The notes under the pieces are model-generated. The model was not told where the DNA came from, searched no databases, and worked only from the letters and a program-made list of their open reading frames with translations. From contig JALSRK010000016.1 of the NCBI GenBank assembly GCA_026984795.1, positions 1 to 64,000 on the forward strand: DNA of 64,000 nucleotides, read 5' to 3'. Position 1 is the first letter of the stretch. Every line of letters begins with the position of its first letter. The translations under genes were made by a program, and so were the position numbers. The stretch comes from Solibacteraceae bacterium (GTDB lineage: Bacteria > Acidobacteriota > Terriglobia > Bryobacterales > Bryobacteraceae). Below, in pieces: positions 36,852-52,589 of this stretch.

Positions 36852-37463
36852 TTAGCGCTCCATGCGGTCTTCGATCAGCACACGGATGGTGGCGGAGACT
36901 CCTTTCACTCCACGCGTGCCGTCGATCGTCCAGATATCGGCCTTCGGATAATATGCCCGGAGCATGTCCATCTCTTCGTGGTAGCGTGCCAGCCGCTGGC
37001 TGACGATCTCTGGAGCGTCCTCGGGACCGCCCCGTTTCGCGCACCGCTCCCGCACCACCTTGTCAGGGATGTGAATCTGGATGACGATCGGGCTCGGCAA
37101 GCCGAACTCCCGCACCAGACGGCCGAGATAGTCGGCTTGGGCGCGGGTCGCCGGGTAGCCGTCCAGAACAAACCCCCGGCTGATCTCGGTTCGTTGTAAG
37201 CGTTCCCTCAGCAATTCGTCCAAGTGGGAGGACGTGCGTGGCAGCTTGTCGCCCGCGGCGCCGGCGTCGGCCGCCACTAGCTCTTCCACCGAGATCACCG
37301 GCAGGCCGTATTTCCTTTTTAAATACTCCGCCTGGGTCGATTTGCCGCTTGCCGGCGGCCCAACCAGGACCACCACCAGCGGCTCCGGCAGCACGTCCCC
37401 GGCCATCAAGCCGGTCGCAGCCACGGCTAACCACCCAGCCAGCAACCAGCGCCTCGATTTCAT
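36852..37463 (-). CDS. Exported adenylate-kinase-like P-loop protein
   Basis: A 203-aa nucleoside-monophosphate-kinase fold protein with the P-loop GPPASGKST at 35-43, RGFVLDGYP in the position of the adenylate kinase GFxLDGFPR motif, and a shortened lid. Before the P-loop is a clear signal peptide (SRRWLLAGWLAVAATGLMAG), supported by a GGGAGG ribosome site 8 nt before the ATG, so the protein is probably exported. The AMP-site arginine after DGFP is alanine here (DGYPATRAQ), and the STGDxLR block is ISVEELV. Function is uncertain; adenylate kinase activity may be lost. Confidence 0.7.
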   Translation of the reverse strand: MKSRRWLLAGWLAVAATGLMAGDVLPEPLVVVLVGPPASGKSTQAEYLKRKYGLPVISVEELVAADAGAAGDKLPRTSSHLDELLRERLQRTEISRGFVLDGYPATRAQADYLGRLVREFGLPSPIVIQIHIPDKVVRERCAKRGGPEDAPEIVSQRLARYHEEMDMLRAYYPKADIWTIDGTRGVKGVSATIRVLIEDRMER

Positions 37464-38041: not shown

Positions 38042-38536
38042 TCAGCTCCCGTCTGATTCCGGCCGTTCTTTCTTGAACATGGCGATCGCCTCGATCTCGA
38101 CAAGCAGCTCCGGCCGGCAGAGTTTTGCTTCGATCCCCGTAGATGCCGGATAGGGATCGAGCCCCTGCTCGTCATAAAAGCGCTTCCGCTCCTCGTTGAA
38201 CTCCTTGTAGTCGCGGTCGATATCCCGCAGGTAGCAAGTGGTGCGGATCACGTCCTTCCACGTCGCGCCCTCGGACTCCAACAGCTTGGTGATGTTATGA
38301 AAGGTCCGGCGGCACTGGGCGCGGAAGTCGCCCACATGGACGCTGTTGCCATGTTCGTCTACGCTCGCCGTGCCCGAGATGAACAGGATCACCAGCCCAT
38401 TGAGATCGACACGCATCCCGCGGGAGAAGGCGCTTCCGTATTCGCAAGCCTCGTTCAGCACCTCAGGAGCCCTGATCGCCCGCTTTTTCACAGTCGCACC
38501 CTGAATCTCATTGATGATTTCGTTGATTTTCAACAC
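38042..38536 (-). CDS. RidA/YjgF/YER057c family protein
   Basis: A 164-aa protein of the Rid family, whose archetype hydrolyses reactive 2-aminoacrylate and related enamines. Visible blocks: ILFISGTASVDEHGN, FRAQCRRTFHNITKLLESEGATWKDVIRTTCYLRDI and the closing LCRPELLVEIEAIAM (the Cys-Arg-Pro-Glu-Leu segment carries the substrate-carboxylate arginine). It is longer at the N-terminus than RidA itself (about 128 aa), as in subfamilies of unknown function. Start GTG at 38536 with GGAGGT 9 nt upstream. The TATAAT on the minus strand at about 38712-38707 may be its promoter. Confidence 0.85.
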   Translation of the reverse strand: MLKINEIINEIQGATVKKRAIRAPEVLNEACEYGSAFSRGMRVDLNGLVILFISGTASVDEHGNSVHVGDFRAQCRRTFHNITKLLESEGATWKDVIRTTCYLRDIDRDYKEFNEERKRFYDEQGLDPYPASTGIEAKLCRPELLVEIEAIAMFKKERPESDGS

Positions 38537-38913: not shown

Positions 38914-38990
38914 GCGCCCGTAGCTCAGCTGGATAGAGCGTCTGGCTACGAACCAGAAGGTCGCGTGTTCGAATCGCGCCGGGCGCACCA
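38914..38990 (+). tRNA. tRNA-Arg (anticodon ACG)
   Basis: A 77-nt cloverleaf. The acceptor arms GCGCCCG and CGGGCGC pair perfectly, the D arm is GCTC-AGCTGGAT-AGAGC, the anticodon loop is ctACGaa between TCTGG and CCAGA, and the T loop is ttcgaat. The discriminator A and CCA are encoded. ACG, read as inosine, serves CGU, CGC and CGA. No second copy of its 3' end is seen downstream, so there is no sign of an integrated element. Confidence 0.97.
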
Positions 38991-39328
38991 TTCTTTATTT
39001 CTTGATCACTCGGCTCGCTTAACAGAACCGACCGCCTCCTCAGCTCGAGCCGCGGCGGCCCCGCACAGGAAGCCGTGGAACAGGCCAGTTCCCCGATCCG
39101 TTGAGCACATACCGCTCTGCCTCATCCGGCAGTTGGCCGGATCCGCTCTTCGGCGGCGCGCCACACTCCACCCCCTGCCCGGCTCCACCGGCTCGGGAAC
39201 CATCAGACTTTGCCAGCCGGATGTCCGTTTACTTCTCCACATTCGTTGGCTATACTTGACTATGACCGTTCGCGGTCGTGAGAGGGGGACGCAGTTCAGG
39301 GCCATGAGCAACGGCAGTGGGTGCTGGT
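38991..39328. other. Region between tRNA-Arg and the haem-protein operon
   Basis: Holds no full gene. It contains the operon promoter (39228-39256), a small GNRA-free hairpin with a TTCG loop (39264-39277) at the predicted transcript start, and a short open frame that overlaps the first gene. Confidence 0.55.
39228..39256 (+). promoter_or_regulatory. Sigma70-type promoter of the six-gene haem/propeller operon
   Basis: TTTACT (39228-39233), 17-nt spacer, TATACT (39251-39256). The transcript would begin near 39263, right at the hairpin with arms gaccg/cggtc (39264-39277). Confidence 0.6.
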
Positions 39329-39339
39329 ATGTGGCATGA
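39304..39339 (+). CDS. Possible leader peptide (11 aa) overlapping the next start
   Basis: ATG AGC AAC... encodes MSNGSGCWYVA and stops at 39339, 11 nt inside the next gene, in another frame. An AGGG lies 4-5 nt upstream. It may couple translation of the following gene or be chance. Confidence 0.3.
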   Translation: MSNGSGCWYVA

Positions 39340-41089
39340 TCCCAGGCTGACTCCTCTCGCAACCAAACCATCGCTCGCCGCACTCCTCCTGCTCTGCCTT
39401 TCCTGGCCCGCTTTCCCGTACGGGCGGCGGATCCCCGCCCCGATCGTCTTCACCCAGGCCGCAACCCACGCTACCGCCGCCGGGAAGCCAGCGCCATGCC
39501 GGCTGGTGCGTCTCGACCCAGGCGGAAGCCTTCACGTGCTCACGCGGGACTTCTATTCGGCGCGGGACCCCGAGGTATCCTTCGACGGCGACTACATCCT
39601 CTTCTCCGGCCGGCGCCGGCCGGAGGATCGCTGGCAGATCTTCGAGATGAAGGCCGACGGAACCGGCTTGCGCCAGGTGACCTCCGAACCAATGGACTGC
39701 CGCCGGCCGGTCTACCAGTCCTACTTTTACGTCATCACCGCCGACAAGCCCTGGCGCCAGATCAGTTTCGTGGGACTCCAGCCGGGACGTGAACCAGCGA
39801 TCTACTCGACCCGGCTGGACGGTACGGCGCTGCGCCGGCTGACGTTCAACCCTTACGGCGCCACCGACCCTTTCCTGATGCCCGACGGCCGCATGGTGAT
39901 CTCGAGCCGCCAGAGTCACCGCGTGGAACCCGGCCCCGAAGACCGCGCTCCGCTGTTCGGCGTCAATGTGGACGGGACGGATTACGCAGCGTTCACCGGC
40001 GGCCAGGGCGCAGCCTGGAAGTGGGCGCCGGCCGTCACTTCGAACGGACTGGTGGTCTTTGTCGAGTCTGACCAGCCCCGTCCCGACCGGGCCGGCTGGC
40101 TGGCCGCCGTGACCACGCGGCGTCCGTTGCATTCGTACCGGAAGCTAACCGAGCCGGGCGAATGGCTCTACCGGTCGCCGTCCCCGCTCCGGGACGGCTC
40201 GATCCTCGCGGCCCGCAAGCGCGCCGGCGACGGCTCCACCTTCGCCATCGTCCGGTTCGACCCGGCGGCCAGCGCCGCGGAGGAGGTTTTCGACGCCGCC
40301 GATTACGATGACATACAACCCCGGCTGCTGGCGCCTCGCCCGGTCCCCGACGGCCGCAGTTCCGTGGTCAACGAACAAGACCCGACCGGTATTCTGTACT
40401 GCCTGAACGTCAACATCTCCGATTTGCAGCCACGGGACGGCTGGACGGCGGGGGTGGCGAAACGGTTGAGGGTCATCGAGGGCATGCCGCGGACTCGCGA
40501 GTCCGACGGTTTCCCTCCGCCGGCGCGGCGAGTGCTCGGCGAAATCCCGCTCGAGAAAGACGGCTCGTTCAACGTCCGTGTGCCGGCCAATATTCCGATC
40601 CAGTTGCAGCTCATCGATGAGCACGGCCTGGCTCTGCGGAGCTGCCAATGGATCTGGGTGAAGAACAAAGAACCGCGCGGCTGCATCGGCTGCCACGAGG
40701 ATGGAGAGCTGACGCCGGAGAACCGCATGGTGGATGCGGTGACGAAACCTTCCGTCCGCCTCACCTTGCCGCCGGAACGCCGCCGGCGGGTGACCTTCGA
40801 GAAGGACATCCTGCCGATCTTCCGTAGCAAGTGCGCCACCGCGGGCTGTCACGGCGAGACGGCTTCCGTCCGCTTGACGTCCCTTGCCGAAGTTCGCGCC
40901 CACGTTGGGGCCAGCGCCCGGACGTCGCCCTTGGTCTGGCATCTGTTCGGCCGGAACACCTCGCGGCCGTGGGACCATCCCCTGCCGGCGATCCAGACGG
41001 TGGAAGGAATGCCCCCGAAAGGCGGAACGTCTCTTACCGACCTGGAGCGGCGGCTCATTCTTGAATGGATCGATCTGGGGGCCGAATGA
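39329..41089 (+). CDS. Exported TolB-like/hydrazine-synthase-alpha-like dihaem protein
   Basis: A 586-aa protein with a signal (KPSLAALLLLCLSWPAFP). Residues about 35-330 form a TolB/WD-like propeller (EMKADGTGLRQVT, STRLDGTALRRLTFN, GVNVDGTDYAAFT). The region around IPIQLQLIDEHGLALRSCQWIW to GCIGCHEDGEL (haem motif CIGCH at 452-456) matches the middle domain of hydrazine synthase alpha-like proteins, which are common outside anammox bacteria. The C-terminal domain has a second haem motif of unusual spacing, CATAGCH (502-508, CX4CH), after ILPIFRSK, with MPPKGG as a likely axial-Met region. First gene of the six-gene operon; its stop overlaps the next start. The reaction is unknown; hydrazine synthesis is not implied. 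Confidence 0.75.
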   Translation: MWHDPRLTPLATKPSLAALLLLCLSWPAFPYGRRIPAPIVFTQAATHATAAGKPAPCRLVRLDPGGSLHVLTRDFYSARDPEVSFDGDYILFSGRRRPEDRWQIFEMKADGTGLRQVTSEPMDCRRPVYQSYFYVITADKPWRQISFVGLQPGREPAIYSTRLDGTALRRLTFNPYGATDPFLMPDGRMVISSRQSHRVEPGPEDRAPLFGVNVDGTDYAAFTGGQGAAWKWAPAVTSNGLVVFVESDQPRPDRAGWLAAVTTRRPLHSYRKLTEPGEWLYRSPSPLRDGSILAARKRAGDGSTFAIVRFDPAASAAEEVFDAADYDDIQPRLLAPRPVPDGRSSVVNEQDPTGILYCLNVNISDLQPRDGWTAGVAKRLRVIEGMPRTRESDGFPPPARRVLGEIPLEKDGSFNVRVPANIPIQLQLIDEHGLALRSCQWIWVKNKEPRGCIGCHEDGELTPENRMVDAVTKPSVRLTLPPERRRRVTFEKDILPIFRSKCATAGCHGETASVRLTSLAEVRAHVGASARTSPLVWHLFGRNTSRPWDHPLPAIQTVEGMPPKGGTSLTDLERRLILEWIDLGAE

Positions 41090-42711
41090 AAAGAACCTGC
41101 TTATGCGTGCTGCTGGCGCTGGCCGCCGGTCCGGCGGTGGCGAACGACCTCCCTGTCTTCACCGAGGTCACCCGGGAGGCCGGCATCGATTTCAAACACA
41201 GCTACGGCGATTTCGAACTCGACAACATCGTCGAGGGCACCGGCGCCGGAGCGTGTTTCTTCGATTACGACAACGACGGGTTCCAGGACCTCTACCTCGT
41301 CAACGGCGCCTGGACCCGGGGCGTGAGCGACAACCGGGGCCGCCGCCTCCGCGGCAAGCTCCATAACCGCCTTTACCACAACAACGGCGACGGGACTTTC
41401 ACGGACGTCACGGAAACCTCCGGCGCCGGCGATGAGACTTTCTCGAGCGGCTGCTCGGCGGCCGACTACGACAACGACGGCGACGTCGATCTCTACGTCT
41501 TGAACTACGGCCCGAACAGGCTCTACCGCAACAACGGCGACGGGACGTTCACCGAGGTCTCGCACCAGGCAGGCCTGGACTTTCCCCGCTGGAGCCTTCA
41601 CGCCGTCTGGCTCGATTACGACGGCGACGGGTGGCTCGACGTCTACGTCGCCAACTACCTGCGCTACGACGAGGGCAAGTTCCGCGACTTCTACGCCGCC
41701 CGAGGCTATCCGGGCCCGCTGAGCTACGACGGCGAACCCGACGTGCTCTACCACAACAACGGCGACGGCACGTTCACGGACGTGACCGACGCGATGGGCG
41801 TCTACGTAGCCGACGGGCGCGCGATGAGCGTCACCGCCGCCGATCTCACCAACAGCGGCCGCTTGGGGATCTACGTCACCAACGACGCGATGGAAAACTA
41901 CTATTGGGAACAAGGGCCCGACGGCAAGTTCCATGACCGCGCCGCGGAACTGAACCTCGCTTGGGGCGAGAACGGCCAGAACGTCGCCTCCATGGGTCCC
42001 GCGATCGGCGACATCGACCGCAATGGCTGGCTCGACGTCTTCGTTCCCGACCTCCGCTACTGCACCCTGCTCATGGGCAACAAGAACGGATGGGACTTTC
42101 GAACCGACACCGTCGGCCTCTCCGTCGTCATGGGCCAATACACGAGCTGGGGGCCGGCGCTGTTCGATTACGACAATGACGGCTGGCTCGACCTTTACAC
42201 CAGCCACGGCAACGCCCACCACGAATACGTCGAGGAAGACACCCTCGTCCGCAACAAGGGCGACGGAACCTTCGAGGACGTTTCCGATCTGTCCGGACCC
42301 TTCTTCCGGGAGAAATATGTCGGCCGAGGCGTGGCCTACGCCGACTACGACAACGACGGCGACATTGACCTGCTGGTCGTGAACCTGAACGACTACCCGA
42401 ACCTGTTACGCAACGACGGCGGCAACCGGAACAACTGGCTCATGATCGACGCCCGGCTCGTCTTCCCCACCGGTGAGCGCACGGCCATCGGCGCCCGGGT
42501 GAGCGTCGAGACCGAGGGCCTGAAACAGATCGCCGACCTCGTGCCCATGAGAGGCTATCTTTCCCAGCACGACTCCCGCCTGCACTTCGGACTCGGCCGG
42601 GCCCCGGCGGCGCGCACGGTGACCATCCGCTGGCCCGACGGCGCCGTGGAGACCTTCCACAACGTGCGGGCGAACCAGGTGCTGAAGCTTCGCAGGGAGG
42701 TGCACCGGTGA
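41086..42711 (+). CDS. Exported CRTAC1-like protein (FG-GAP/VCBS repeats plus ASPIC/UnbV domain)
   Basis: A 541-aa protein with a signal peptide (CLCVLLALAAGPAVA). At least six FG-GAP repeats carry calcium-binding DxDxDG loops (FDYDNDGFQDLY, DYDNDGDVDLY, DYDGDGWLDVY, DIDRNGWLDVF, DYDNDGWLDLY, DYDNDGDIDLL), predicting a seven-bladed calcium-binding propeller. Each is followed by NNGDGTFTDVT-type strands. The C-terminal ASPIC/UnbV domain runs from about 460 (GARVSVETEGLKQI to VTIRWPDGAVETF). Such proteins are abundant in Acidobacteriota and Planctomycetes and are thought to bind or assemble extracellular partners. It overlaps its neighbours on both sides by 4 nt. Confidence 0.85.
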   Translation: MKRTCLCVLLALAAGPAVANDLPVFTEVTREAGIDFKHSYGDFELDNIVEGTGAGACFFDYDNDGFQDLYLVNGAWTRGVSDNRGRRLRGKLHNRLYHNNGDGTFTDVTETSGAGDETFSSGCSAADYDNDGDVDLYVLNYGPNRLYRNNGDGTFTEVSHQAGLDFPRWSLHAVWLDYDGDGWLDVYVANYLRYDEGKFRDFYAARGYPGPLSYDGEPDVLYHNNGDGTFTDVTDAMGVYVADGRAMSVTAADLTNSGRLGIYVTNDAMENYYWEQGPDGKFHDRAAELNLAWGENGQNVASMGPAIGDIDRNGWLDVFVPDLRYCTLLMGNKNGWDFRTDTVGLSVVMGQYTSWGPALFDYDNDGWLDLYTSHGNAHHEYVEEDTLVRNKGDGTFEDVSDLSGPFFREKYVGRGVAYADYDNDGDIDLLVVNLNDYPNLLRNDGGNRNNWLMIDARLVFPTGERTAIGARVSVETEGLKQIADLVPMRGYLSQHDSRLHFGLGRAPAARTVTIRWPDGAVETFHNVRANQVLKLRREVHR

Positions 42712-45566
42712 AGAAACGACCGAGTGCGGCGCTCGCCACCGCCGCGCTGGCGGCGCTGGTCGCGGCGCCGGCCTGGGTGAGCGCCCAACGGGTGAAACCC
42801 GTCTACGTCGGCGCCCGCGTCTGTGGGCAGTGCCATTCCGGGTCCGGGATGGGCAATCAGTACAGCGTCTGGCTCCATTCCCGCCATGCTCAGGCCTACG
42901 CGGCCCTCGCCGAACCTGAGTCGCGGGAGATCGCCAAACTCAGCGGCATCCGCCAGGAACCCCAGGAAACCTTTACGTGTCTCGGCTGCCACTCGAGCGG
43001 CGCCAACGCTGAGGACTGGGAGAAGGACGAGACCTTCCGGGTTGAAGACGGCGTACAGTGCGAGAGTTGCCACGGCCCGGGAAGCGAGTACATCGACCCG
43101 GAAGTGATGAGCGACCCGCAACGGGCGAAGGCGGCCGGCCTGATCATGCCCGGCCCCGACACCTGCGACCGGTGTCACCAGGAGAAAGGTACACACATCG
43201 CGGTGCTGAACTCCCCCGTACTCGATGTGAAGGAGGGATTGAAAAAGATCGCTCACCCGACGCCGGAGAATCCGGAAATGGGAGGAGTGCCGGAGTACCC
43301 TGCCGAGGCTCCGAAACGCGAAGGTCCGAAATACATCGGATCGGCCAAATGCGGCGAGTGCCATCGGGGGCGCAAATCGGGTTTCCAGTACTCGAAGTGG
43401 CTCCTTTCCCGCCACTCCCGCGCTTGGGCCGCGTTGGGCACGGCGCAGGGCATGAAGATGGCTCGGGCAAAGGGCATTCAAGGCGATCCCCAGAGGGCTC
43501 CCGAGTGCCTGAAGTGCCACTCCACCGGCTATCAGGAAGGCGCCGAGGCATTTGCACCCTCCTTCTCGATCGACGAGGGAATCGGTTGCGAAGCCTGCCA
43601 CGGGCCCGGCAGCGATTATTCGGTGGAAGCCGTGATGATGGATCCGCTGGCCGCCCGGAAGGCGGGGTTGAAGAAGGTGACCAAAGCCACCTGCATGCCG
43701 TGCCACGAGAACGCCCACGGCAAACCGTTCGAAGCCGACCTTAGCGCTGTCTCCCACCCCTCTAAGCTCCCCGACGTAGCCGAGGAACCGCGTTACAAGA
43801 CGCCGCTGAACATGGCGCTGCGTCCGGGGACGAAAGAAATCTGGGTCACCTGCTCCGGATCGGACTCGGTGATTCTCGTCGACGCCTCGGGCCGCGAAAA
43901 GATCGCCGAGATTCCCGTGGGCGGCATGCCGGAAGATGTCGCCTTCTCGCCGGACGGCGCCCGCGCCTTCGTTTCGAATCTCTTCGACGACACGGTTTCC
44001 GTCATCGATGCTTCGGCCCGGAAGATCGTCCGGACCGTCCCGGTGGGAGACGAGCCGCACGGCGTGTTGATGGACGGTAAGGGCCGCCGCCTGTACGTCC
44101 TGAACTCGATTTCGGACGACATCACGGTCCTGGACGGCGCGACTCTGAAGCGCGAGAAGAACCTCGTGGCCAGTCGCCGCCCCTGGTCACTCGCCTCTTC
44201 CCCGGACGGCGCCCTGATCGCCGTCAGCCATGCCCTGTCGCGGTTCGTCCCCTTCCGCAAGCCGTCGCGGGCCGAGGTGACGATCATCGACACCGGGCGA
44301 GGCGTGGTCGAGGACCGCTTCGTGGCCGAGGGCGCCAACCTGCTGTTGGGCATCGCCTGGCATCCCTCCGGCGATTTCGCCTTGACTACCTTGAACCGGA
44401 CAAAAAACCTCGTGCCTATGACCCGCCTGCTTCAGGGCTGGACGATCACCAATGGCCTGGCGATCTTCTGGCGCGACGGGACTGTGGACCAGGTGCTGCT
44501 CGACGAGCCGGGCATGTGCTTCCCCGATCCCACCGATGTAGCGATCACCCCCGACGGGCGCTACGCGCTGGTTACCAGCTCCGGCTCGGACCGGGTCGCC
44601 GTCGTGGACCTGCGGAAGCTGATTGCTTTGATCCAGTCCTCCTCGCCTTACGAGCGGCGGCACGTGCTCCCCAACCACTTGGGAAAACCCACTGAGTTCG
44701 TCATCAAGCATATCGCCGTCGGGCGGAGTCCCCGGGGCGTGCTGATTCTGCCCAATGGCGAGACGGCCTTCGTGGCCAACTCCCTCGACGATTCGCTGTC
44801 GGTGATCGATCTGAAAACTTTCAAGGTCGTGGGCAGCGTGGATCTGGAAGGCCCGAAGGTGATTACCAAAGCCCGCCTGGGCGAGCGCCTCTTTCATAGC
44901 GCCAAGATCACCTTCCGCCGCCAGTTCTCCTGCCATACCTGCCACCCGGACGGACATATCGACGGCATCACGTATGACATCGAACCGGACGGGATCGGCG
45001 TCAGTCCGGTGGACAACCGCACCCTCCGCGGAATCCTCGACACGGCGCCTTTCAAGTGGGAAGGAACCAATCCTACGTTGCGCCGCCAGTGCGGCCCTCG
45101 CCTGGCCGTCTTCTTCACCCGGATCCAGCCGTTCACCCCGAAGGAGCTCTCCGCGCTCGAGTACTACATCTCGACGATCCCGCGTCCGCCCAACCGTTTC
45201 CGTCCCCTCGGCGCTGAACTCACTGAAGCTCAGCGCCGCGGCAAGGAGATCTTCGAACGCAAGTACACCAACGACGGCCGCCTCATTCCCGAAGGAAACC
45301 GCTGCATCACCTGCCACTACCCGCCGTACTACACCGACCGGCGGCGCCACAACGTCGGGACCCAATTCCAGTTCGACCGCGAGTCGGACTTCGACACGCC
45401 GCACCTCAACAACATTTACGATTCGGCGCCCTATCTCCACAACGGAATCGCGCACTCCCTGGAAGAAATCTGGACGGTCTACAACCCGTACGACAAGCAC
45501 GGCGTGACAAACGACATGACAAAAGATCAGCTCAATGATCTGATCGAGTATTTGAAGACATTATAG
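42708..45566 (+). CDS. Decahaem cytochrome: duplicated tetrahaem module, YVTN propeller and peroxidase-like tail
   Basis: A 952-aa exported protein with ten CxxCH motifs. Haems 1-4 (Cys39, 91, 118, 153) and 5-8 (Cys215, 267, 294, 329) form two tetrahaem modules of cytochrome c554 type; all four pairs are exactly 176 residues apart. Residues about 350-730 are a YVTN-type propeller (GGMPEDVAFSPDGARAFVSN, VPVGDEPHGVLMDG). The last 220 residues resemble the MauG/cytochrome c peroxidase family, with CHTCH (742) and CITCH (866) and DTPHLNNIYDSAPYLHNG at the end. This suggests a periplasmic or outer-face electron conduit with a peroxidase-like active module. GTGA overlap with the upstream gene. Confidence 0.85.
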   Translation: MKKRPSAALATAALAALVAAPAWVSAQRVKPVYVGARVCGQCHSGSGMGNQYSVWLHSRHAQAYAALAEPESREIAKLSGIRQEPQETFTCLGCHSSGANAEDWEKDETFRVEDGVQCESCHGPGSEYIDPEVMSDPQRAKAAGLIMPGPDTCDRCHQEKGTHIAVLNSPVLDVKEGLKKIAHPTPENPEMGGVPEYPAEAPKREGPKYIGSAKCGECHRGRKSGFQYSKWLLSRHSRAWAALGTAQGMKMARAKGIQGDPQRAPECLKCHSTGYQEGAEAFAPSFSIDEGIGCEACHGPGSDYSVEAVMMDPLAARKAGLKKVTKATCMPCHENAHGKPFEADLSAVSHPSKLPDVAEEPRYKTPLNMALRPGTKEIWVTCSGSDSVILVDASGREKIAEIPVGGMPEDVAFSPDGARAFVSNLFDDTVSVIDASARKIVRTVPVGDEPHGVLMDGKGRRLYVLNSISDDITVLDGATLKREKNLVASRRPWSLASSPDGALIAVSHALSRFVPFRKPSRAEVTIIDTGRGVVEDRFVAEGANLLLGIAWHPSGDFALTTLNRTKNLVPMTRLLQGWTITNGLAIFWRDGTVDQVLLDEPGMCFPDPTDVAITPDGRYALVTSSGSDRVAVVDLRKLIALIQSSSPYERRHVLPNHLGKPTEFVIKHIAVGRSPRGVLILPNGETAFVANSLDDSLSVIDLKTFKVVGSVDLEGPKVITKARLGERLFHSAKITFRRQFSCHTCHPDGHIDGITYDIEPDGIGVSPVDNRTLRGILDTAPFKWEGTNPTLRRQCGPRLAVFFTRIQPFTPKELSALEYYISTIPRPPNRFRPLGAELTEAQRRGKEIFERKYTNDGRLIPEGNRCITCHYPPYYTDRRRHNVGTQFQFDRESDFDTPHLNNIYDSAPYLHNGIAHSLEEIWTVYNPYDKHGVTNDMTKDQLNDLIEYLKTL

Positions 45567-45580
45567 GAGCAAAATCCGCA

Positions 45581-46729
45581 ATGTTAGCGAAACTCGTATG
45601 GCCGGCCGCAGTGGCAGGATGCCTCCTGGCCGCACCCGCCAGGCCCGAGGCCCTGCCGTACGTTTACACGCATTGGAAGCAGTTCACGGTGAAAGACGGC
45701 TTGCCCAACGACCACATCTTCGCCGTCAAAGTCGATGGACCCCGAGTCTGGATCGGAACCGAAGGCGGCCTCGCAATGCTCGACAAGCGTACCGGTCGCA
45801 TCCGTTCCTGGACCGAGAAGGACGGCCTGCCCTGGAAGGTCGTCTCCGCCATCGACGTCGATCCCAAGACCGGCGACGTCTGGCTGGGACTCTTCGGCGG
45901 AGGCCTCGCCCGCTTCAGCGGGGGACGTTTCGATCATTGGCATCAGCTCAACAGCGGGCTGGTAAATGACGTGGTCTACGGCGTGGCGGTCGAACATGAA
46001 AACATCTGGGCGGCGACCACCGCCGGCGCCAGCCGCTACAACACCGTCACCGGCGAATGGACCATCTTCACCGAGAAGAACGCCCCCATGGAAGAGATCT
46101 GGAACTACACCGTCACGTACAACGACGGCAAGGTGTACCTCGGCGTCTGGGGCAGCGGCGTGCTCGAGTACGACGTCAAGCGCGAGCGGTGGAAAGACTA
46201 CCTGGATCCGGACGGCGAAATGGAGATCGACCTGTATCGCGACGACGGCGTCGTCCACGTGATCACCACCGGCGTCAGCTACGTTGACGGCATCCTGTGG
46301 ACCGGCTCCTACTTCGGCGGCTCCCGTTACGACGGCCGCAACTGGCGGGGCTATTTCAATAAGGATTCCGGCCTCCCCAGCGACTTCATCAACTTCGTCA
46401 AAGCGCGTTCCGCGAACGAAGCCTGGTACTGCACCGACAAAGGCCTCGGAGTCATCACCGATTTCAAGACGAACACCTGGGTCGTCTACACGCGGGACCC
46501 GGAAAAGCACACCGGCAAGGCGGTCGTCATGCGCGACCGCGACGTTTTGAAGACCATCGACACCGGCATCAATATTCCGCACAACTACGTGCTCTGCGCC
46601 GATCTGGACGGCAACGACGTCTGGGTCGGCACATCGAAAGGACTGGCCTGGGGCATCGGCGACGCCTATTACGCCGGGCTCCGGGAGCAACCGGAAAGCG
46701 AACCGCAACAGCGCGCTGGAGGTGAGTGA
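45581..46729 (+). CDS. Exported two-component-regulator-type propeller protein
   Basis: A 382-aa protein with a signal (MLAKLVWPAAVAGCLLAAP) and Reg_prop-like blades: FTVKDGLPNDHIFAVKVD, VWIGTEGGLAMLDKRTG, WTEKDGLPWKVVSAIDVD, VWLGLFGGGLARFSGG and VWVGTSKGLAWG at the end. No membrane, kinase or DNA-binding domain follows, so it is a stand-alone sensor or scaffold propeller, likely periplasmic. AGGAG lies 11 nt before the ATG, and 14 nt separate it from the decahaem gene. It shares one base with the next gene (TGATG). Confidence 0.8.
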   Translation: MLAKLVWPAAVAGCLLAAPARPEALPYVYTHWKQFTVKDGLPNDHIFAVKVDGPRVWIGTEGGLAMLDKRTGRIRSWTEKDGLPWKVVSAIDVDPKTGDVWLGLFGGGLARFSGGRFDHWHQLNSGLVNDVVYGVAVEHENIWAATTAGASRYNTVTGEWTIFTEKNAPMEEIWNYTVTYNDGKVYLGVWGSGVLEYDVKRERWKDYLDPDGEMEIDLYRDDGVVHVITTGVSYVDGILWTGSYFGGSRYDGRNWRGYFNKDSGLPSDFINFVKARSANEAWYCTDKGLGVITDFKTNTWVVYTRDPEKHTGKAVVMRDRDVLKTIDTGINIPHNYVLCADLDGNDVWVGTSKGLAWGIGDAYYAGLREQPESEPQQRAGGE

Positions 46730-48252
46730 TGAAGAAACGAGCGGCGAGCGGCGGCTTCCGAAACCGCGCCTTGTGGCGGCTTCTCACTGCGGCGGCCCTG
46801 GCAGCTTCATTGGCCCCGCTGGCGGCCGCGGCCGGCCGCGAGTCTGGGAACTGCGATCCCGAAAAGGACATGCCGCCGAAGCTGAGAGCCATCGTGGACG
46901 ACGACACCCTCGAGGTGCTCCGCGCCATCGATTGTCTCAGCCCTTATGAAGTGCCCAAGCTGCCTCTCCGGCAGGATCACAATTATGCCCGCACCCCCGA
47001 AGACCTGGAACCTTACGGCGGCATACGTCCCTACAAGGAGCACTTCTTGCTCCAGATCGAATACACCGGCCCTGGAAGAGCGATCCCGGAACCGGAGCAC
47101 GTCGATAGCGTCAAGATCGGCTTCATCGGCCCCATCATGTCCACGGTCTCGGTGGCCACCGGCGGCAAGAGCCACGAAGAGCCCCTCGGCATCAAGATGC
47201 TTCAGGGCGCCCGCCTGGCTATCGAAGAGGCCAACGCCAGGGGCGGCTACTTCCGGCGAAATATCCCATTCGAGCTCGTCGTGCACAACGACAACGGCCT
47301 GTGGGGAGCCTCGGGCAACGAGATCATCAAGATGGCTTACGACGAAAAGGTCTGGGCCATCCTCGGCACCATCGACGGGGCCAACTCCCACATCGCCATC
47401 CGCGTGGCCCTCAAAGCCGAGATCCCGATGATCAACAGCGGCGATACCGACCCGACCTTCGTTGAGACCAACATCCCCTGGGTGGCCCGCGTGATCAGCG
47501 ACGACCGCCAGCAGGCTTACCTGCTGGTGGACTACATGATCCGCAAGATGAATTACAAGCGGATCGGCATCATGCGCGCCTCCAACCGCTACGGCCGCTT
47601 CGGCGTCCGCGAGGTGAAGGACTCTTGCCGGCGCCTCGGCCGCCCCATCATCCTCGAAATGGCTTACAAGCTCGGCCAGAGCGATTACTCTCTGCAGCTC
47701 GAACGCCTGAAGTCCGAGAACCTCGACGCCATCGTCCACTGGGGCGACGCCGAGGACGCCGCCACGATCCTCAAGCAAATGCGCGCCATGGGGATGAACC
47801 AGCCCTTCCTGTGTAGCGACCGCGCTGTCAGCGACCGGTTCGTCAAAGCCGTCGGCCCCGAACTGGCCGAGGGCGTCATCTGCGCCTATCCCTGGAACCC
47901 GGACCGGAAGGATCCCAAACTCGAGCGGTTCCGCGAAGCTTTCCGCAAGCGCTTCAACGAGGAACCGGAAACCTACGCCGCCCACGCCTATGACGGCATG
48001 AACCTCTTGATCTGGGCGGTGCAAGTGGCGGGCCTGAACCGGGCGAAGATCCGTGACATGATCGCGTACCGCCGGAAGCCCTGGCCCGGCGTCACCGGCG
48101 ACATCCCGTTCAGCGCCGCGCTGGACGACCTCGGCGAGGTCTTCCTCGCCAGATTCGAGCACGGCCGCTGGCACTATTACTCGCGCGACGACCTGGGCAT
48201 CCCCCGCGGCTACATTCCGCCCCGTGACCGCACCAGCCGTGCTTCGGAATGA
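46729..48252 (+). CDS. Periplasmic binding protein, leucine/isoleucine/valine type (Peripla_BP_6)
   Basis: A 507-aa exported protein. After the signal, about 95 residues form a Cys-bearing preamble (ESGNCDPEKDMPP, LRAIDCLSPYEV) not found in ordinary amino-acid binding proteins. From about residue 125 the LivJ-like fold begins: VKIGFIGPIMS, MLQGARLAIEEANARGGYF, AILGTIDGANSHIAIRVA, PMINSGDTDPTF, KRIGIMRASNRYGRFGVREV and AHAYDGMNLLIWAV. No permease or ATPase accompanies it. It may present a small ligand to the haem or propeller proteins of the operon. The ATG at 46729 has GGAGGTGAG 7 nt upstream. Confidence 0.85.
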   Translation: MKKRAASGGFRNRALWRLLTAAALAASLAPLAAAAGRESGNCDPEKDMPPKLRAIVDDDTLEVLRAIDCLSPYEVPKLPLRQDHNYARTPEDLEPYGGIRPYKEHFLLQIEYTGPGRAIPEPEHVDSVKIGFIGPIMSTVSVATGGKSHEEPLGIKMLQGARLAIEEANARGGYFRRNIPFELVVHNDNGLWGASGNEIIKMAYDEKVWAILGTIDGANSHIAIRVALKAEIPMINSGDTDPTFVETNIPWVARVISDDRQQAYLLVDYMIRKMNYKRIGIMRASNRYGRFGVREVKDSCRRLGRPIILEMAYKLGQSDYSLQLERLKSENLDAIVHWGDAEDAATILKQMRAMGMNQPFLCSDRAVSDRFVKAVGPELAEGVICAYPWNPDRKDPKLERFREAFRKRFNEEPETYAAHAYDGMNLLIWAVQVAGLNRAKIRDMIAYRRKPWPGVTGDIPFSAALDDLGEVFLARFEHGRWHYYSRDDLGIPRGYIPPRDRTSRASE

Positions 48253-49301
48253 CCCTGAGTCCCCTACTGCGGCTTGGCGTAGCGGCCCTTCTGACCGGCG
48301 CGCTGGTCTGCCCCGGCGCTGGGGCCGTCAAGATCGGCTATTACGGGCCGGTTGATCCCAACCACCCCCTCGGCGGCGCCGTCTGGCAGGGACTGCAACT
48401 GGCCCTGGAAGAAACAAACGCCGGCCCCGGCGAACCGCTCGTGCTGGTCCACTTCTGGGACGAGAACCCGTGGACGGGCGGCGCCGCCGGGGTCGTCCGC
48501 ATGGTTTATCAGCAACGAGTCTCGGCCCTCATCGGATCCATCGACGCCACGGCGACCCACCTGGCGGAACAGGTCGTCGCCAAGGCCCTCGTCCCGCTCG
48601 TCGATCCGGCCAGCACCGATCCCTCCGTCAACGCCGCCTTCGTCCCCTGGATGTTCTCCGTCATGCCCAGTGATCGGGCCCTGATGGGGTTGCTCGCGGC
48701 GGACCTCGGCGCGCGCCCCTTCGTCCTGCTGAGCTCGACGGCCCACGACGCGCGCGTCATGACGGCCGAGTTCCTCAAAACCCTCGGCAAGCGCCACCCG
48801 CAGCGGCACATCGAGTTCCGCCGGGCAGAGCTTCGGATCGCCGAGGAGGCGGCCGCCGTCCGGCCTCGGACTGTCGTCCTGCTCGCCGGACCCTTGGAGA
48901 GTGCGAGGCTGGTGCGCGACCTGCGTACCCTCCTCCCGGGGGTCGAGATCTTCGCTTCCCACTATGCCGGCCGGCGGGTCTTCCTCGAACGCGCTGGAGA
49001 CGCGGCTGAGGCGGTACGATTCCCTTTGCCCGCCCGGCTCAGTCCCGGCTTCGTCCAAAGGTACCGCCGCCGCTACGGTACGGAGCCCGACTACGCCGCC
49101 GGCTACGGCTACGACGCCATGAGACTCCTCATCCGGGCCATCCGTGAGGCCGGACCGCGGCGGGACGCGATCCGGCAAGCTCTCGAGAAACTCTCTCCAT
49201 ATCAGGGCGTGACCGGTGCGATCCGCTGGAACCGGCTCCGCCGCAACGACGCCAGGCCTCTTTCCGCGGTCATCCGCGGCGGCCGCATCCGCGTGGATTA
49301 G
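48249..49301 (+). CDS. Second periplasmic binding protein of the LivJ type
   Basis: A 350-aa exported protein (signal to about residue 26). The fold matches its upstream neighbour: VKIGYYGPVDPNHPLGGAVWQGLQLALEETNAG, VSALIGSIDATATHLAEQV, PLVDPASTDPSVNAAFVPWMF and YAAGYGYDAMRLLIRAI. It lacks the long preamble. Two related binding proteins in tandem suggest a heterodimer or two ligands. PQQ-linked alcohol dehydrogenase loci also pair YVTN propellers with a substrate-binding protein of this class, so a redox-linked role is possible. Overlaps the upstream gene (ATGA) and, by 4 nt, the convergent M61 gene. Confidence 0.8.
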   Translation: MTLSPLLRLGVAALLTGALVCPGAGAVKIGYYGPVDPNHPLGGAVWQGLQLALEETNAGPGEPLVLVHFWDENPWTGGAAGVVRMVYQQRVSALIGSIDATATHLAEQVVAKALVPLVDPASTDPSVNAAFVPWMFSVMPSDRALMGLLAADLGARPFVLLSSTAHDARVMTAEFLKTLGKRHPQRHIEFRRAELRIAEEAAAVRPRTVVLLAGPLESARLVRDLRTLLPGVEIFASHYAGRRVFLERAGDAAEAVRFPLPARLSPGFVQRYRRRYGTEPDYAAGYGYDAMRLLIRAIREAGPRRDAIRQALEKLSPYQGVTGAIRWNRLRRNDARPLSAVIRGGRIRVD

Positions 49302-51181
49302 CGTGGCTCGGCGTGTCTGCTCGAGGTCCCGGCCGCCCGTGACCCCAGCCACTCGCCCCGGAACCGTGTGACCGCTTCCGGGATTTTGCGCCCCGCATCT
49401 TCGAACGGGATGATTTCCAGCCGTGGCGAGGCAGCCAGCCGGACCCGCGCCCTCGCCCGCCGCCCGCGCTGCTCGTAGTCGAGCACGATCACGTCTCCGG
49501 GCCGCTTCTTGGCCAGCATCCGCCGCCATTGTTTCCGGCCGCGGATGCGCTTGCCGTCCATCGACAAGATCTTCGCCCCACGGTCCAGCCCCGCCTCGTA
49601 CAGCGGCGTCCCCTCGAGCGGGGCCACGCTCAATACCACCCCGTCGCGCCGGAACGAGAGCTGCGATGCGCCGAGGAACGCCTGTTCCGGCTCCGCCGGC
49701 CGCAGCAGGAAGCCCGCCGCCGCCAGCAGCCGCCCGTAGTCCGGCAGCTCGCCCCCGTGGATCGACGCCCGGAAGAACTCCCGCGCGAACGCTTCGTCCC
49801 CCGCCACCCGGCCCAGCACGGCCTCCAGATCGGCAAGCGTATAGGGCCTCTCCCTCCGGCCGAATTCCTCCCACATCGCCCGCATGTAGTCGTCGAGCGA
49901 ACGGCCGGGAAAGCGGCTGCGCAGGGTAAGGTCGAGCCCGAGGCCAAGGGCGAATCCGTATGAGTAGTACGAAAGGTGCGTGTTGCGGAAGTTCGTCGGG
50001 TCCTTTGCTACGGCGCCGTCCGTCAACGGCGCCAGCAGACTGGCGAGCACGGGCGGCTCGTGGCGCCGCGCCGGAGAGTTCAGCACCGCGTCCAACGTCC
50101 GGGACAACCGGTCTGCGAACTTCCCTTGATCCAGCATCCCCGCCCGCTGCAGTACCAGCGCCGTGTAATAGCTCGTGAAACCCTCGGCGAACCAGAGCTC
50201 GCCGGACAGGTTGCACCGCTCGAAGTCGAACGGTTCGAGAGACTTCGGCCGGAGACGCTCGACGTTCCAGGCATGGAAGAACTCGTGAGCGATCGTGCCG
50301 ATCAGTTGCTCGCTGTCGGCCAGTTGGCGCGTGCTCGTACAGTAGGTCGAGTTCCGGTGCTCCATGCCGTCGCCCGCGGCCCACGGCAGATAGTCGGCCA
50401 GGAAGGTATAGGTTCCGTAATCGAACCGCGGCAGCTCGCCGAAGATCCCGATCTCCTCACGCACCACCTTCTTCACCATCCGGGCGAAGGCGTCCACGTC
50501 GGCGGCTTCCCCGGTATGATGCACCGCCAGCCGCAGCGTCTGCACCCGGCGGCCGTCGTCCACCTTCCATTCGCGCAAATCGAACCCGCTCAGCTCGACC
50601 GGGCTGTCCATCAAGTAGTCACGATCGCGGGCCTCGAAGGTGAACGCCTCGCCCACAGGGTGCAGTTGGGTCGCCGCCCGCCAGCCGCAGCCTTCCGGGA
50701 TCTCGAAACGAACCCGCACCGGCCGGTCTTCGGTCCCTCTCGCCCACATGTAGGTGGCTGGACCGTTCAGGTGCGCGTGAGTGCCGTCGATCTGGTCGTA
50801 GGTGCCGTCTCCCCGGTCGCCGAAGAGGGTGTAGCGGAGCCGTACCGTTCCGTCGTGCCCCGAAACGTTCCAGCAGTGCGGCTTCGTGCGCTCTACCCGC
50901 AGCTCCCGTCCGGCTCCGTCCCACGCCGCCACGTCGTAGACGTTCTTGGCGAACTCGTGCAGCGCGTAGCGGCCCGGCGAGGTGCGGCTCATGCAGACCT
51001 CCAGGTCCGGCCCTTCTACATCCCGCCACCAGACTTCGATTTGCGCCTCATGGTGCACCCGGTTCGGGAAATGGATCTGGTACTCGACCGGCGGCGCGGC
51101 TATGGCGCCGAACGCCAGGATGGCGCCGGCGCAAACAATGCGGGACGGCACGGAAACACTCTTGGCTGCCAAACAGACCAT
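49298..51181 (-). CDS. M61 family (glycyl aminopeptidase-like) peptidase with PDZ domain
   Basis: A protein of about 627 aa with an N-terminal signal segment (IVCAGAILAFGAIAA), an N-terminal beta domain (about 35-220), a gluzincin catalytic domain with HEFFHAWNVERLRP and the zinc glutamate in ELWFAEGFTSYYTALVLQRAG, and a C-terminal PDZ domain (LGASQLSFRRDGVVLSVAPLEGTPLYEAGLDRG). M61 enzymes cut N-terminal Gly or Ala peptides in the periplasm. The true start is uncertain: ATG at 51181, an ATG at 51229 or a GTG further inside are all possible. Divergent from the RuBisCO-like gene. Confidence 0.85.
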   Translation of the reverse strand: MVCLAAKSVSVPSRIVCAGAILAFGAIAAPPVEYQIHFPNRVHHEAQIEVWWRDVEGPDLEVCMSRTSPGRYALHEFAKNVYDVAAWDGAGRELRVERTKPHCWNVSGHDGTVRLRYTLFGDRGDGTYDQIDGTHAHLNGPATYMWARGTEDRPVRVRFEIPEGCGWRAATQLHPVGEAFTFEARDRDYLMDSPVELSGFDLREWKVDDGRRVQTLRLAVHHTGEAADVDAFARMVKKVVREEIGIFGELPRFDYGTYTFLADYLPWAAGDGMEHRNSTYCTSTRQLADSEQLIGTIAHEFFHAWNVERLRPKSLEPFDFERCNLSGELWFAEGFTSYYTALVLQRAGMLDQGKFADRLSRTLDAVLNSPARRHEPPVLASLLAPLTDGAVAKDPTNFRNTHLSYYSYGFALGLGLDLTLRSRFPGRSLDDYMRAMWEEFGRRERPYTLADLEAVLGRVAGDEAFAREFFRASIHGGELPDYGRLLAAAGFLLRPAEPEQAFLGASQLSFRRDGVVLSVAPLEGTPLYEAGLDRGAKILSMDGKRIRGRKQWRRMLAKKRPGDVIVLDYEQRGRRARARVRLAASPRLEIIPFEDAGRKIPEAVTRFRGEWLGSRAAGTSSRHAEPR

Positions 51182-51289
51182 GATACGGGATGCCGGGCTG
51201 CCGCCGCCCCCGGCCTGGGCTTGGGACATCGAGCCGCCCTGGTTCCGTAAGTGTGGCGGGCAATTTGCTGAATCATTCTCGGCGGGGCG

Positions 51290-51303
51290 TGGTATACTGA
51301 TCA
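51290..51303 (+). promoter_or_regulatory. Candidate GntR operator at the RuBisCO-like gene promoter
   Basis: TGGTATACTGATCA fits TGGT-N6-ATCA. It overlaps a TATACT -10-like element (51293-51298) and ends 8 nt before the ATG at 51312. It matches the apnL operator at 12 of 14 positions. Confidence 0.6.
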
Positions 51304-51311
51304 CTCCACAG

Positions 51312-52589
51312 ATGACTGAGTTCGTCCGCGCCCGCTACCTCATCGAAACGGCTCTGCCTTTGGAAGAGGCCGCCGCCGTAATGGCGGGCGAGCAATCCAC
51401 GGGTACCTTCGTTCGCCTGCCGGGCGAAACCGAGGAACTCGTGCGGGCTCACGCCGCTCGCGTGGAAGAAATCCAAGAACTGGGCGCCGTAGACCAGCCG
51501 AGTCTCCCCGGGGCCATGGCGCCGCCGCCCGGAGGTCCGGGCAATGAGCGCTACCGCCGCGCCGAGGTGGTTCTAGCATGGCCGCTTTCCAATATGGGGG
51601 TTTCGCTTCCCAATCTCCGCTCTACCGTGGCCGGCAACCTCTATGAGCTGCGCCCGTTCTCCGGACTCCGATTGCTCGACATCGAACTGCCGGAGGCCTA
51701 CGCCGATGTCTACCCCGGCCCGCAATTCGGCGTCGAGGGAACGCGCCGGCTCTCCGGCGTCCGCGGGCGGCCTCTGGTCGGCACGATCGTCAAGCCGAGC
51801 GTCGGCCTGTCGCCGGAGGAAACCGCCCGCCTCGTCCGCACGCTGGCCGAGGCCGGCATCGACTTCATCAAGGACGACGAACTGCAGTGCGACGGGCCCC
51901 ACTGTCCCTTCGATGAGCGCGTGGCGGAGGTCATGCGGGTGATCAACGACCACGCCGACCGCACCGGCAAGAAGGTGATGTACGCCTTCAACGTCACCGG
52001 CGAGCTGGACCAGATGCGCCGCCGGCACGACCTGGTGCTCGAACACGGCGGCACCTGCATCATGGTGAGCCTGAACAGCGTCGGGCTGAGCGGCGTGGCC
52101 GATCTGCGCCGCCACAGCCGGCTGCCCATCCACGGTCACCGCAACGGCTGGGGCCTCTATACGCGCGCGCCGCTGCTCGGCATGAGCTTCATCGCCTACC
52201 AGAAGTTCTGGCGCGTCGCCGGCGTCGATCACATCCACGTCAACGGCCTCCGCAACAAGTTCTGGGAGCCCGACGATTCCGTCATCGCCTCGGCCCGCGC
52301 CTGCCTTGCCCCAATGTTCGCCCGGCCCGGCAAGGGCTACGAGGTGATGCCGGTCTTCTCCTCCGGCCAGTGGGCCGGCCAGGCTGCGGACACCTACCGG
52401 GCTTTGGGCTCGACGGACTTGATCTACGCCTGCGGCGGAGGCATCATGGCCCATCCGGGGGGCGTCGCGGCAGGCGTCAAGAGCATTCGCCTGGCCTGGG
52501 AGCTGGCGGTGGCGGGCCGCTCCCTGGAGGAGGGCGCAAGGGAGCACGTGGAACTGCGGCAGGCGCTCGAGAAGTTCGGCAAGCGATGA
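51312..52589 (+). CDS. RuBisCO-like protein, probable 3-oxo-isoapionate-4-phosphate decarboxylase or transcarboxylase/hydrolase
   Basis: A 425-aa form IV RuBisCO homologue. Retained elements: the catalytic lysine in GTIVKPSVGLSPEE, the carbamylation and metal site DFIKDDE, HRNGWG in the position of the His-Arg pair, the phosphate-binding SSGQWAGQ and ACGGGIMAHPGG. The loop-6 region differs from true RuBisCO (GLRNKFWE), so carbon fixation is unlikely. The adjoining DUF1537 kinase and 6-PGDH-like enzyme match the D-apionate pathway, in which RuBisCO-like proteins act on 3-oxo-isoapionate 4-phosphate (OiaX decarboxylase or OiaT transcarboxylase/hydrolase); I cannot separate these two. The open frame extends upstream into M61 territory but the ATG at 51312 gives the family N-terminus. 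Confidence 0.75.
   Translation: MTEFVRARYLIETALPLEEAAAVMAGEQSTGTFVRLPGETEELVRAHAARVEEIQELGAVDQPSLPGAMAPPPGGPGNERYRRAEVVLAWPLSNMGVSLPNLRSTVAGNLYELRPFSGLRLLDIELPEAYADVYPGPQFGVEGTRRLSGVRGRPLVGTIVKPSVGLSPEETARLVRTLAEAGIDFIKDDELQCDGPHCPFDERVAEVMRVINDHADRTGKKVMYAFNVTGELDQMRRRHDLVLEHGGTCIMVSLNSVGLSGVADLRRHSRLPIHGHRNGWGLYTRAPLLGMSFIAYQKFWRVAGVDHIHVNGLRNKFWEPDDSVIASARACLAPMFARPGKGYEVMPVFSSGQWAGQAADTYRALGSTDLIYACGGGIMAHPGGVAAGVKSIRLAWELAVAGRSLEEGAREHVELRQALEKFGKR

Follow-up and report, generated by a model that had tools for sequence, protein, structure and literature searches.

A hydrazine synthase-related haem operon conserved across phyla recurs beside Rid-family and DAHP synthase genes

Using domain, profile and structure searches together with residue alignments and a survey of related loci, we analysed a window of 64,000 nucleotides (nt), positions 1 to 64,000 of contig JALSRK010000016.1 (C16 in our numbering) in the 5.2 Mb genome of a Solibacteraceae bacterium, and find that an operon of six plus-strand genes, g1 to g6, encodes relatives of the alpha, beta and gamma parts of hydrazine synthase (HZS), the anammox enzyme, and that this operon recurs beside genes for Rid-family proteins and DAHP synthase. 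DAHP synthase is the entry enzyme of the shikimate pathway. Because the operon recurs beside genes for making an aromatic building block, we suggest that the machine it encodes probably works with an aromatic compound and not with hydrazine. More specifically, though tentatively, we favour an HZS-related haem machine in the periplasm whose reaction is on, or involves, a hydroxyaromatic made from chorismate, a reading in which the linkage is what we observe and the chemistry is what we propose. The features on which the argument draws are these:

38042-38536, minus strand: Rid-family protein of 164 residues, chorismatase-like, with Ser in place of the RidA catalytic Arg (motif PASTGI...CRPELLVEIEAIA; PF01042, 77 bits)
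39228-39256, plus strand: weak sigma-70-like promoter match 5' of g1 (promoter scan)
39317-41089, plus strand: g1, HzsA-like subunit (HZS_alpha PF18582, 68 bits; NF052339, 134 bits; 5c2v_A)
41065-42711, plus strand: g2, FG-GAP propeller with UnbV/ASPIC domain, CRTAC1 type (Pfam domains)
42708-45566, plus strand: g3, fusion of 952 residues joining an octahaem part (two cytochrome c554-like units), an HzsB-like propeller and an HzsC-like dihaem peroxidase
42795-43742, plus strand: octahaem part of g3, about residues 30-345 (Cytochrome_C554 matches, eight CxxCH)
43791-44819, plus strand: HzsB-like YVTN propeller of g3, about residues 362-704 (5c2v_B sequence and fold matches)
44868-45563, plus strand: HzsC-like dihaem (MauG/cytochrome c peroxidase) part of g3, about residues 721-952 (5c2v_C match, E 2.6e-19; residue tally)
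45581-46729, plus strand: g4, stand-alone Reg_prop beta-propeller (Pfam; conserved in relatives by alignment)
46726-48252, plus strand: g5, LivJ-type substrate-binding protein SBP1 (PF13458, Peripla_BP_6; nearest solved structure 4gnr, E 1.2e-28)
48249-49301, plus strand: g6, LivJ-type substrate-binding protein SBP2 (Peripla_BP_6)
63619-64000, continuing to contig position 64431, minus strand: short DAHP synthase of 270 residues without N-terminal extension (TIGR01361, 348 bits for the L138 copy; placed in a tree with operon copies)

In sequence searches against the PDB, g1 matches HZS alpha (5c2v_A) with E 1.9e-32, and it is the sole PF18582 match in the host genome; its 134 bits against NF052339 compare with a cut-off of 800. 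It consists of an N-terminal propeller, the HZS_alpha domain, a CxxCH (residues 456-460) and a C-terminal cytochrome with CX4CH, so that its sequence holds one CxxCH and one CX4CH. The single chain of g3 matches both HZS beta (5c2v_B, E 2e-34) and HZS gamma (5c2v_C), and its best NCBIfam match is the beta-gamma fusion model, at 198.5 bits for a cut-off of 1250. Pfam recognises Cytochrome_C554, a YVTN-type propeller and, weakly, CCP_MauG (22.5 bits, below the cut-off of 25.6) in this protein, which carries ten CxxCH motifs (8+2). The predicted structure of g3, built from 28 sequences with a pLDDT of 76.9 and a weak peroxidase part, has HZS beta 5c2v_B as its top structure (Z 45.5, 336 residues aligned, root-mean-square deviation (rmsd) 2.1; runner-up Z 38.9), and profiles built from homologues of the operon proteins pick up anammox HzsA, HzsB and HzsC. 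On sequence and predicted structure, then, g1 is an HzsA homologue and g3 a fused HzsB-HzsC (HzsBC) homologue with eight extra haem motifs.

The residues that distinguish HZS were followed in an alignment of 97 HzsBC-like and 76 HzsA-like homologues with five and eight anammox counterparts, respectively. Haem attachment is largely kept: the gamma-I CxxCH is retained in all HzsBC-like proteins but one, the alpha-I CxxCH in 74/76, and ten CxxCH occur in 75/97 complete HzsBC-like open reading frames (ORFs), while gamma-C165 is present in 76/76 decahaem proteins, 14/21 others and 5/5 anammox proteins. The place of gamma-H144, however, is Trp in 95 of the 97 (one Ser and one gap make up the rest) and His in none, and the haem gamma-I aspartate, which we take to be Asp168, is missing from all 97. 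In the alpha part, Y591, the proximal ligand of alpha-I, is found in 0/76 homologues and 8/8 anammox proteins, with Glu in 68/76, the alignment being loose here; H772, distal at the alpha-II haem, is likewise found in 0/76, although the haem II cysteines align in 51/76, and C303 is missing from 76/76 and also from one of the eight anammox proteins. MauG and cytochrome c peroxidases also have Trp at the position of H144 (Hagglund et al. 2025, PMC12758564; this and the other papers cited are represented by the available parts of their text), and the aspartate is connected to haem gamma-I (PMC12607021). Our tally repeats, on another protein set and with Asp168 added, the conclusion of PMC12758564 that key HZS residues are missing from such homologues, for which no function is given there. 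With these residues absent, the operon product is not an HZS.

The arrangement of the genes is conserved. The order HzsA, ASPIC, HzsBC, Reg_prop, SBP1, SBP2 is retained in relatives from the same family and class and in most sufficiently long loci among the best 80 of 264 g3 relatives, whose records are labelled Acidobacteria/Bryobacterales, planctomycete groups, Verrucomicrobia, Deltaproteobacteria, Neomarinimicrobiota, Deferribacteres, Aminicenantes, Caldithrix and others. For a joint survey of 122 loci, stretches were chosen by g1 (L015-L024), by g3 (L039-L118, these best 80, of which 8 duplicates were dropped and 72 counted, many ended by contig ends), by Rid (L119-L137, six counted, which are therefore biased toward Rid) and by g4 in two phylum surveys (L160-L178 and L179-L192). 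L178 is the same fragment as L051, neither entry having Rid, DAHP synthase or a complete six-gene set, and a 300-base word of L080 recurs unchanged in L116; distinct loci number 121. All six genes are present in 56 loci and stand in the exact order in 48 of them; among the eight that deviate, ASPIC is extra or moved in seven and the binding-protein genes are swapped in one (L115). Conservation of order was one of the checks on which the original prediction for this DNA had staked its operon, and the order is kept across phyla.

A Rid-family gene is the commonest operon partner among the clustered neighbour genes. Rid or a two-domain Rid (Rid2) occurs in 52/122 loci, single-domain in 45 and two-domain in seven others, and 19/122 loci hold both Rid and DAHP synthase. 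The single-domain genes lie on the operon strand in 43/45 cases and inside the operon or at most 300 nt away in 41/45, although distances in the survey hold artefacts from over-long ORFs and the class 'inside' also takes in genes overlapping the last operon gene at its end. In the window the Rid gene is divergent, about 0.8 kb from g1; elsewhere Rid sits directly 5' of g1, between g4 and SBP1, or 3' of SBP2. The g4 surveys found 19/396 and 15/294 genomes positive, and in the 33 stretches chosen by g4 alone, with the window's own and that of genome G455 dropped, Rid/Rid2 occurs in 16 and DAHP synthase in 15 (9 and 9 of 19 in the first set, 7 and 6 of 14 in the second); the 72 loci chosen by g3 hold Rid/Rid2 in 21 and DAHP synthase in 5. 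Whole genomes point the same way. Among 61 genomes, 37 of them from one family, the Rid subfamily (at least 190 bits, the next best genome scoring 62) is found in 16/16 with an HzsA-like match (E <= 1e-10) and in 5/45 without (Fisher 1e-10). In the phylum of G455, a set of 294 genomes with no more than six candidates scored in each, the Rid2 profile gives a strong match (E <= 1e-18) in 13/15 genomes with g4 and 23/279 without. The p-values of co-occurrence are overstated because the genomes are related.

DAHP synthase is the second partner, present in 22/122 loci (21 type I, one class II) and in 13/49 well-flanked loci, which gives p 3e-13 at an assumed chance rate of 1.5% per locus, a rough estimate; three of the 49 loci, one with DAHP synthase, were chosen by Rid. 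The class II enzyme, directly 3' of SBP1 in L119, scores 606.6 bits against a curated cut-off of 614.7. A tree was made of 43 type I enzymes, 22 from operons or their vicinity. The copies linked to operons do not form one group in it: two groups of them stand firmly apart among other copies, and two further groups are placed less firmly; together with the class II case, this implies at least three recruitments of DAHP synthase, perhaps five. Nearly all checked genomes with an operon-linked type I copy (14/15, the exception being G523) also hold another DAHP synthase above 200 bits. Operon copies are short at the N terminus, with 25-73 residues before the AGPC motif in 16/22 and more in six, some of whose ORFs start too early, while 17/19 other copies have at least 98. 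The window copy has 23 such residues and, with its counterpart in G033, is sister (96/89) to one in-operon DAHP synthase group. In the host, therefore, the same partner has probably been kept at a distance of 14 kb, and we count the window gene, given that distance, as a probable member of the set. To the six genes originally proposed, Rid and DAHP synthase are to be added as members of the recurring set.

What the Rid protein does is central to our reading. C140, R141 and E147 are the same in all 22 Rid proteins aligned from operon loci, and the single-domain protein has both chorismatase motifs, PASTGI (PAATGI in chorismatases) and CR..LLVE, the latter aligning with 5ag3. We take Cys140 and Glu147 to be active-site residues of FkbO/Hyg5 chorismatases, and 5ag3 and 5a3k to be Hyg5, although the PDB listing names them otherwise. 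For the two-domain Rid of L107, most of both domains can be aligned with 5ag3 (E 5.1e-11), 5a3k and FkbO 4bps, and the FkbO/Hyg5 chorismatase model TIGR04444, whose cut-off is 325, matches it along most of its length at 58 bits. A Cys is typical of the Hyg5-type enzymes, which form 3-hydroxybenzoate (PMC7170507). From the alignment, it is presumably the invariant Cys seen here. The RidA catalytic Arg (Arg105 of TdcF) is absent, PASTGI replacing PARSCV in the window protein, and the Ser at its place is shared by all 19 Rid proteins aligned from the window and operon loci.

Several observations weigh against a chorismate-derived substrate, and against Rid as its source. The window Rid, a single domain rather than the two-domain chorismatase architecture, reaches 38 bits with TIGR04444, short of the cut-off, and single-domain Rid scores higher with the ordinary Rid structure 2dyy (49 bits) than with 5ag3 (27 bits). 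The 50 PDB matches listed for the Rid model are Rid/YjgF-type or unnamed by title (TdcF 2uyj: Z 15.5, rmsd 2.4, 122 aligned) and include no chorismatase, so that fold fails to separate the readings. The window itself has its Rid on the opposite strand past a tRNA, and its DAHP synthase far off. Rid also occurs unlinked to the operon and in genomes without the operon genes, 23 genomes in the phylum of G455 have the strong Rid2 match without g4, and none of five Rid-positive genomes without the operon has any of its genes beside Rid. Rid, DAHP synthase and nitrilase are all absent nearby in 14/49 well-flanked loci; a Rid-family match lies elsewhere in 13 of those genomes (three at >=180 bits, five at 76-108, five at 32-53) and in one there is none, and the weak matches could come from ordinary RidA. 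The nearest solved relatives of SBP1 and SBP2 are named for branched-chain amino acids, which is uninformative on the ligand and, for SBP1, unhelpful to an aromatic one. Finally, no aromatic exporter was seen, though no search aimed at one was made.

Among 20 operon-bearing genomes chosen because Rid is not beside the operon, or nitrilase is, 17 have some Rid-family match elsewhere; part of these matches lie in long ORFs with several domains, and part are no stronger than ordinary RidA would give. We examined six loci of long Rid proteins from planctomycete genomes with the operon (L193-L198, outside the 122-locus tally): L194 and L197 adjoin an HzsBC-like gene, L196 adjoins an HzsA-like gene and three adjoin neither. 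In L194, L196 and L197 it is a second, more distant HzsBC-like or HzsA-like gene that stands by the long chorismatase-like Rid, the main operon being present in the same genomes.

The scores and the common Rid fold of the single-domain protein are also what an ordinary imine or enamine detoxifier would show, and we consider this the first alternative: Rid would clear a reactive product of the haem complex, DAHP synthase would answer the same stress on aromatic amino acid synthesis, and the substrate would be non-aromatic. Rid family genes do cluster with amine oxidases (PMC4433059). Yet the Arg essential for imine hydrolysis (PMC4433059) is the very residue replaced by the invariant Ser, two-domain chorismatase-like proteins stand in for Rid at other loci, and Rid, judged by eye, has no signal peptide whereas the complex looks exported. 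We regard this explanation as unlikely.

For the chorismate-linked haem machine that we favour, we envisage a complex that would descend from the same stock as HZS and perform other chemistry. In the cytoplasm, the dedicated DAHP synthase would increase flux through the shikimate pathway and the chorismatase-like Rid would convert chorismate to a hydroxybenzoate-type aromatic acid, 3- or 4-hydroxybenzoate being our leading guess, and the aromatic compound would then get to the periplasm. There, the HzsA-like and HzsBC-like proteins would be held by beta-propellers (the HzsA N terminus, FG-GAP/ASPIC, YVTN and Reg_prop), and a redox reaction on or with the aromatic might take place at the MauG-type haem gamma-I, with its third Cys kept and Trp for the HZS His. 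The fused eight-haem arm would supply or remove electrons, and its being part of the chain that also bears the catalytic haems points to direct wiring; for anammox HZS, a separate cytochrome c has been proposed as the electron source (PMC12607021). The two LivJ-type proteins, without a permease of their own here, would bind the aromatic or its product and pass it onward. That they act together is suggested by L119-L121 and L123, where SBP1 and, after it, a second binding domain in shortened form share one ORF of 604-676 residues.

A longer version of this pathway, which we consider possible but doubtful and which would be widespread, would have hydroxybenzoate exported and converted by a two-site HZS-type machine (for example with NO-, H2O2- or metal-derived oxidants, or to yield a redox shuttle), its product caught by the LivJ-type pair, and HZS itself derived from an aromatic-processing ancestor. 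If so, anammox HZS would have shed the haem arm and the aromatic partners and had its two active sites rebuilt.

A second alternative, which we think more improbable than detoxification by Rid, is a sensory or scaffold assembly without net catalysis, in which a redox or aromatic cue would be sensed through haem and propeller proteins and relayed by the binding proteins to a receptor elsewhere. The four propeller proteins or domains, the stand-alone Reg_prop protein, the two binding proteins without a permease and the occurrence of two binding domains within one ORF at some loci would all suit such a role, but the conserved dihaem peroxidase core, with its Trp and third Cys, and the eight-haem arm suggest turnover, and the operon has no kinase or transducer.

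PQQ (pyrroloquinoline quinone)-alcohol-dehydrogenase loci pair a propeller with a binding protein, and g3 does match a PQQ-associated propeller model (112 bits) and YncE-type propellers, which had made such loci the nearest analogy in the original prediction. The HZS beta-gamma model scores higher (198 bits), HZS beta is also the closest fold, and the recurrent neighbour clusters, read by eye and with no family scan made, contain no obvious quinoprotein; by score and fold the PQQ set is not the nearest relative, and we judge an accessory role in such a system very improbable. Least credible of all is a genuine HZS in an unrecognised anammox-type host, for, although HzsA, HzsB and HzsC homologues stand side by side and keep gamma-C165 and the alpha-I and gamma-I CxxCH in most or nearly all cases, the absence of Y591, H772, H144 and D168, scores far under the curated cut-offs (134/800 and 198/1250) and the like conclusion of PMC12758564 lead us to reject it.

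Returning to the window, the six ORFs overlap or almost touch: g1 and g2 overlap with the listed g2 ATG at 41065, an alternative start at 41086 (MKRTCLCV...) giving a 4-nt overlap; g2/g3, g4/g5 and g5/g6 overlap by 4 nt each, and g3 and g4 are separated by a 14-nt gap. A tRNA-Arg gene (38914-38990) lies between the divergent Rid gene and g1. The promoter and terminator scan is at chance level, with 3 promoter matches in the region against 1.6 expected in shuffles, so that the match at 39228-39256 is not evidence alone. Signal peptides of the operon products were assessed by eye, without a predictor, and the domain scan finds no permease, ATPase or kinase among the six. ORF listing, Pfam/NCBIfam matches and haem motifs bear out what had originally been read from the DNA, namely a six-gene operon at this place and strand encoding dihaem HzsA-like, CRTAC1/ASPIC, decahaem-YVTN-peroxidase, Reg_prop and two LivJ-type proteins with no transport or kinase gene. 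That account of g3 overlooked its whole-length HzsB-HzsC homology, and the Rid gene upstream went unnoticed. A periplasmic redox assembly with ligand-binding proteins, as was then proposed, fits our data and the conserved order, and as a whole that proposal is partly supported.

Around the operon at other loci, downstream TPR and extra ASPIC genes, and genes named by eye as NtrC-like and MocA-like, recur in loose positions. A nitrilase-family gene is found in 9/122 loci, seven of them planctomycete-labelled, and on the opposite strand in 7/9. This nitrilase-family amidohydrolase, 61-77% identical to the copy of L055, lies 3' of the operon, usually on the other strand, in planctomycete loci L040, L055, L063, L085, L112, L118 and others. 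Elsewhere in the window, 50982-54794 (plus strand) encodes an OiaX-like RuBisCO-like protein (497 bits), an OiaK-like kinase (530 bits) and a PGDH_C dehydrogenase, the scores falling short of the NCBIfam cut-offs, and a RhaT-like transporter follows on the other strand; this looks like a D-apionate/3-oxo-isoapionate catabolic cluster. An adenylate-kinase-family protein (PF00406) with an apparent N-terminal signal peptide by eye lies at 36852-37463 (minus), an M61 glycyl aminopeptidase with a weak PDZ match at 49298-51304 (minus), convergent with and touching g6, and a protein of 900 residues with a carbohydrate-binding module, CBM96, at 60701-63403 (plus).

HZS is the key enzyme behind a large share of the nitrogen lost worldwide, and the question of where it came from still stands. 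Relatives outside anammox are known without a function, and their repeated linkage to chorismate supply offers a concrete lead to what they do, and thereby to the chemistry out of which hydrazine synthesis may have arisen. A further suggestion is that HZS-like genes found in metagenomes be checked for Rid, DAHP synthase and the missing residues before being read as anammox potential. What this analysis adds is the order of the six genes across the groups seen, the partnership with Rid and DAHP synthase, and the finding that DAHP synthase was recruited more than once. A literature search that left out most subscription journals, preprints and supplements found, among the papers listed, no published link between an HZS-type locus and chorismate, DAHP synthase or chorismatase, and, for an operon or domain set joining CRTAC1 and cytochromes, only PMC12758564 for the locus. 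The original statement that the operon had no described role holds for function; the type of locus had been described (PMC12758564, PMC10732223).

The closest known system is that of Hagglund et al. 2025, in whose available text alpha and beta-gamma homologues lie together in clades I-IV and, in clades I and II, have a CRTAC1 gene between them; eight N-terminal haem motifs are described for clade I, and two ABC binding-protein genes follow downstream (PMC12758564). With its alpha, CRTAC1, beta-gamma order, two cytochrome c554 domains carrying eight haem motifs and two ABC-type binding proteins downstream, and likewise with key HZS residues gone, gamma-C165 kept and Trp for gamma-H144, the window operon belongs, by gene order and haem motifs, to clade I. 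Paludibaculum fermentans is among the clade members (PMC12758564), and the Reg_prop gene goes unmentioned in that text, as do, in its main text with supplements aside, 'chorism-', shikimate, DAHP and the full name of the enzyme. Compared with anammox HZS (Kuenenia, 5c2v), the operon shares the alpha, beta and gamma parts, the alpha-I and gamma-I CxxCH, the third Cys on gamma-I and, partly, the alpha-II motif. We take Paludibaculum fermentans to be an acidobacterium, like the host of the window. In contrast to HZS, the operon lacks Tyr591, His772, His144 and Asp168, has eight added haem motifs, fuses beta with gamma and brings in extra ASPIC, Reg_prop and binding proteins; none of the 17 anammox genomes (HzsA above cut-off) in the 294-genome set has a strong Rid2 match, two having weak ones. 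With the FkbO/Hyg5/XanB2 chorismatases it is linked by the alignment of the L107 two-domain Rid and the invariant Cys and Glu of the C-terminal motif, whereas the window Rid is single-domain, both it and L107 score below the TIGR04444 cut-off, and the chorismatase role is a predicted one. Similarly, in Phycisphaerae UBA1845 an hzsA-like gene adjoins a fused hzsBC-like gene, as here, and a wider enzyme family was suggested; there, however, the genes were proposed as possible anammox, and partners of the Rid/DAHP type go unmentioned in the available text (PMC10732223).

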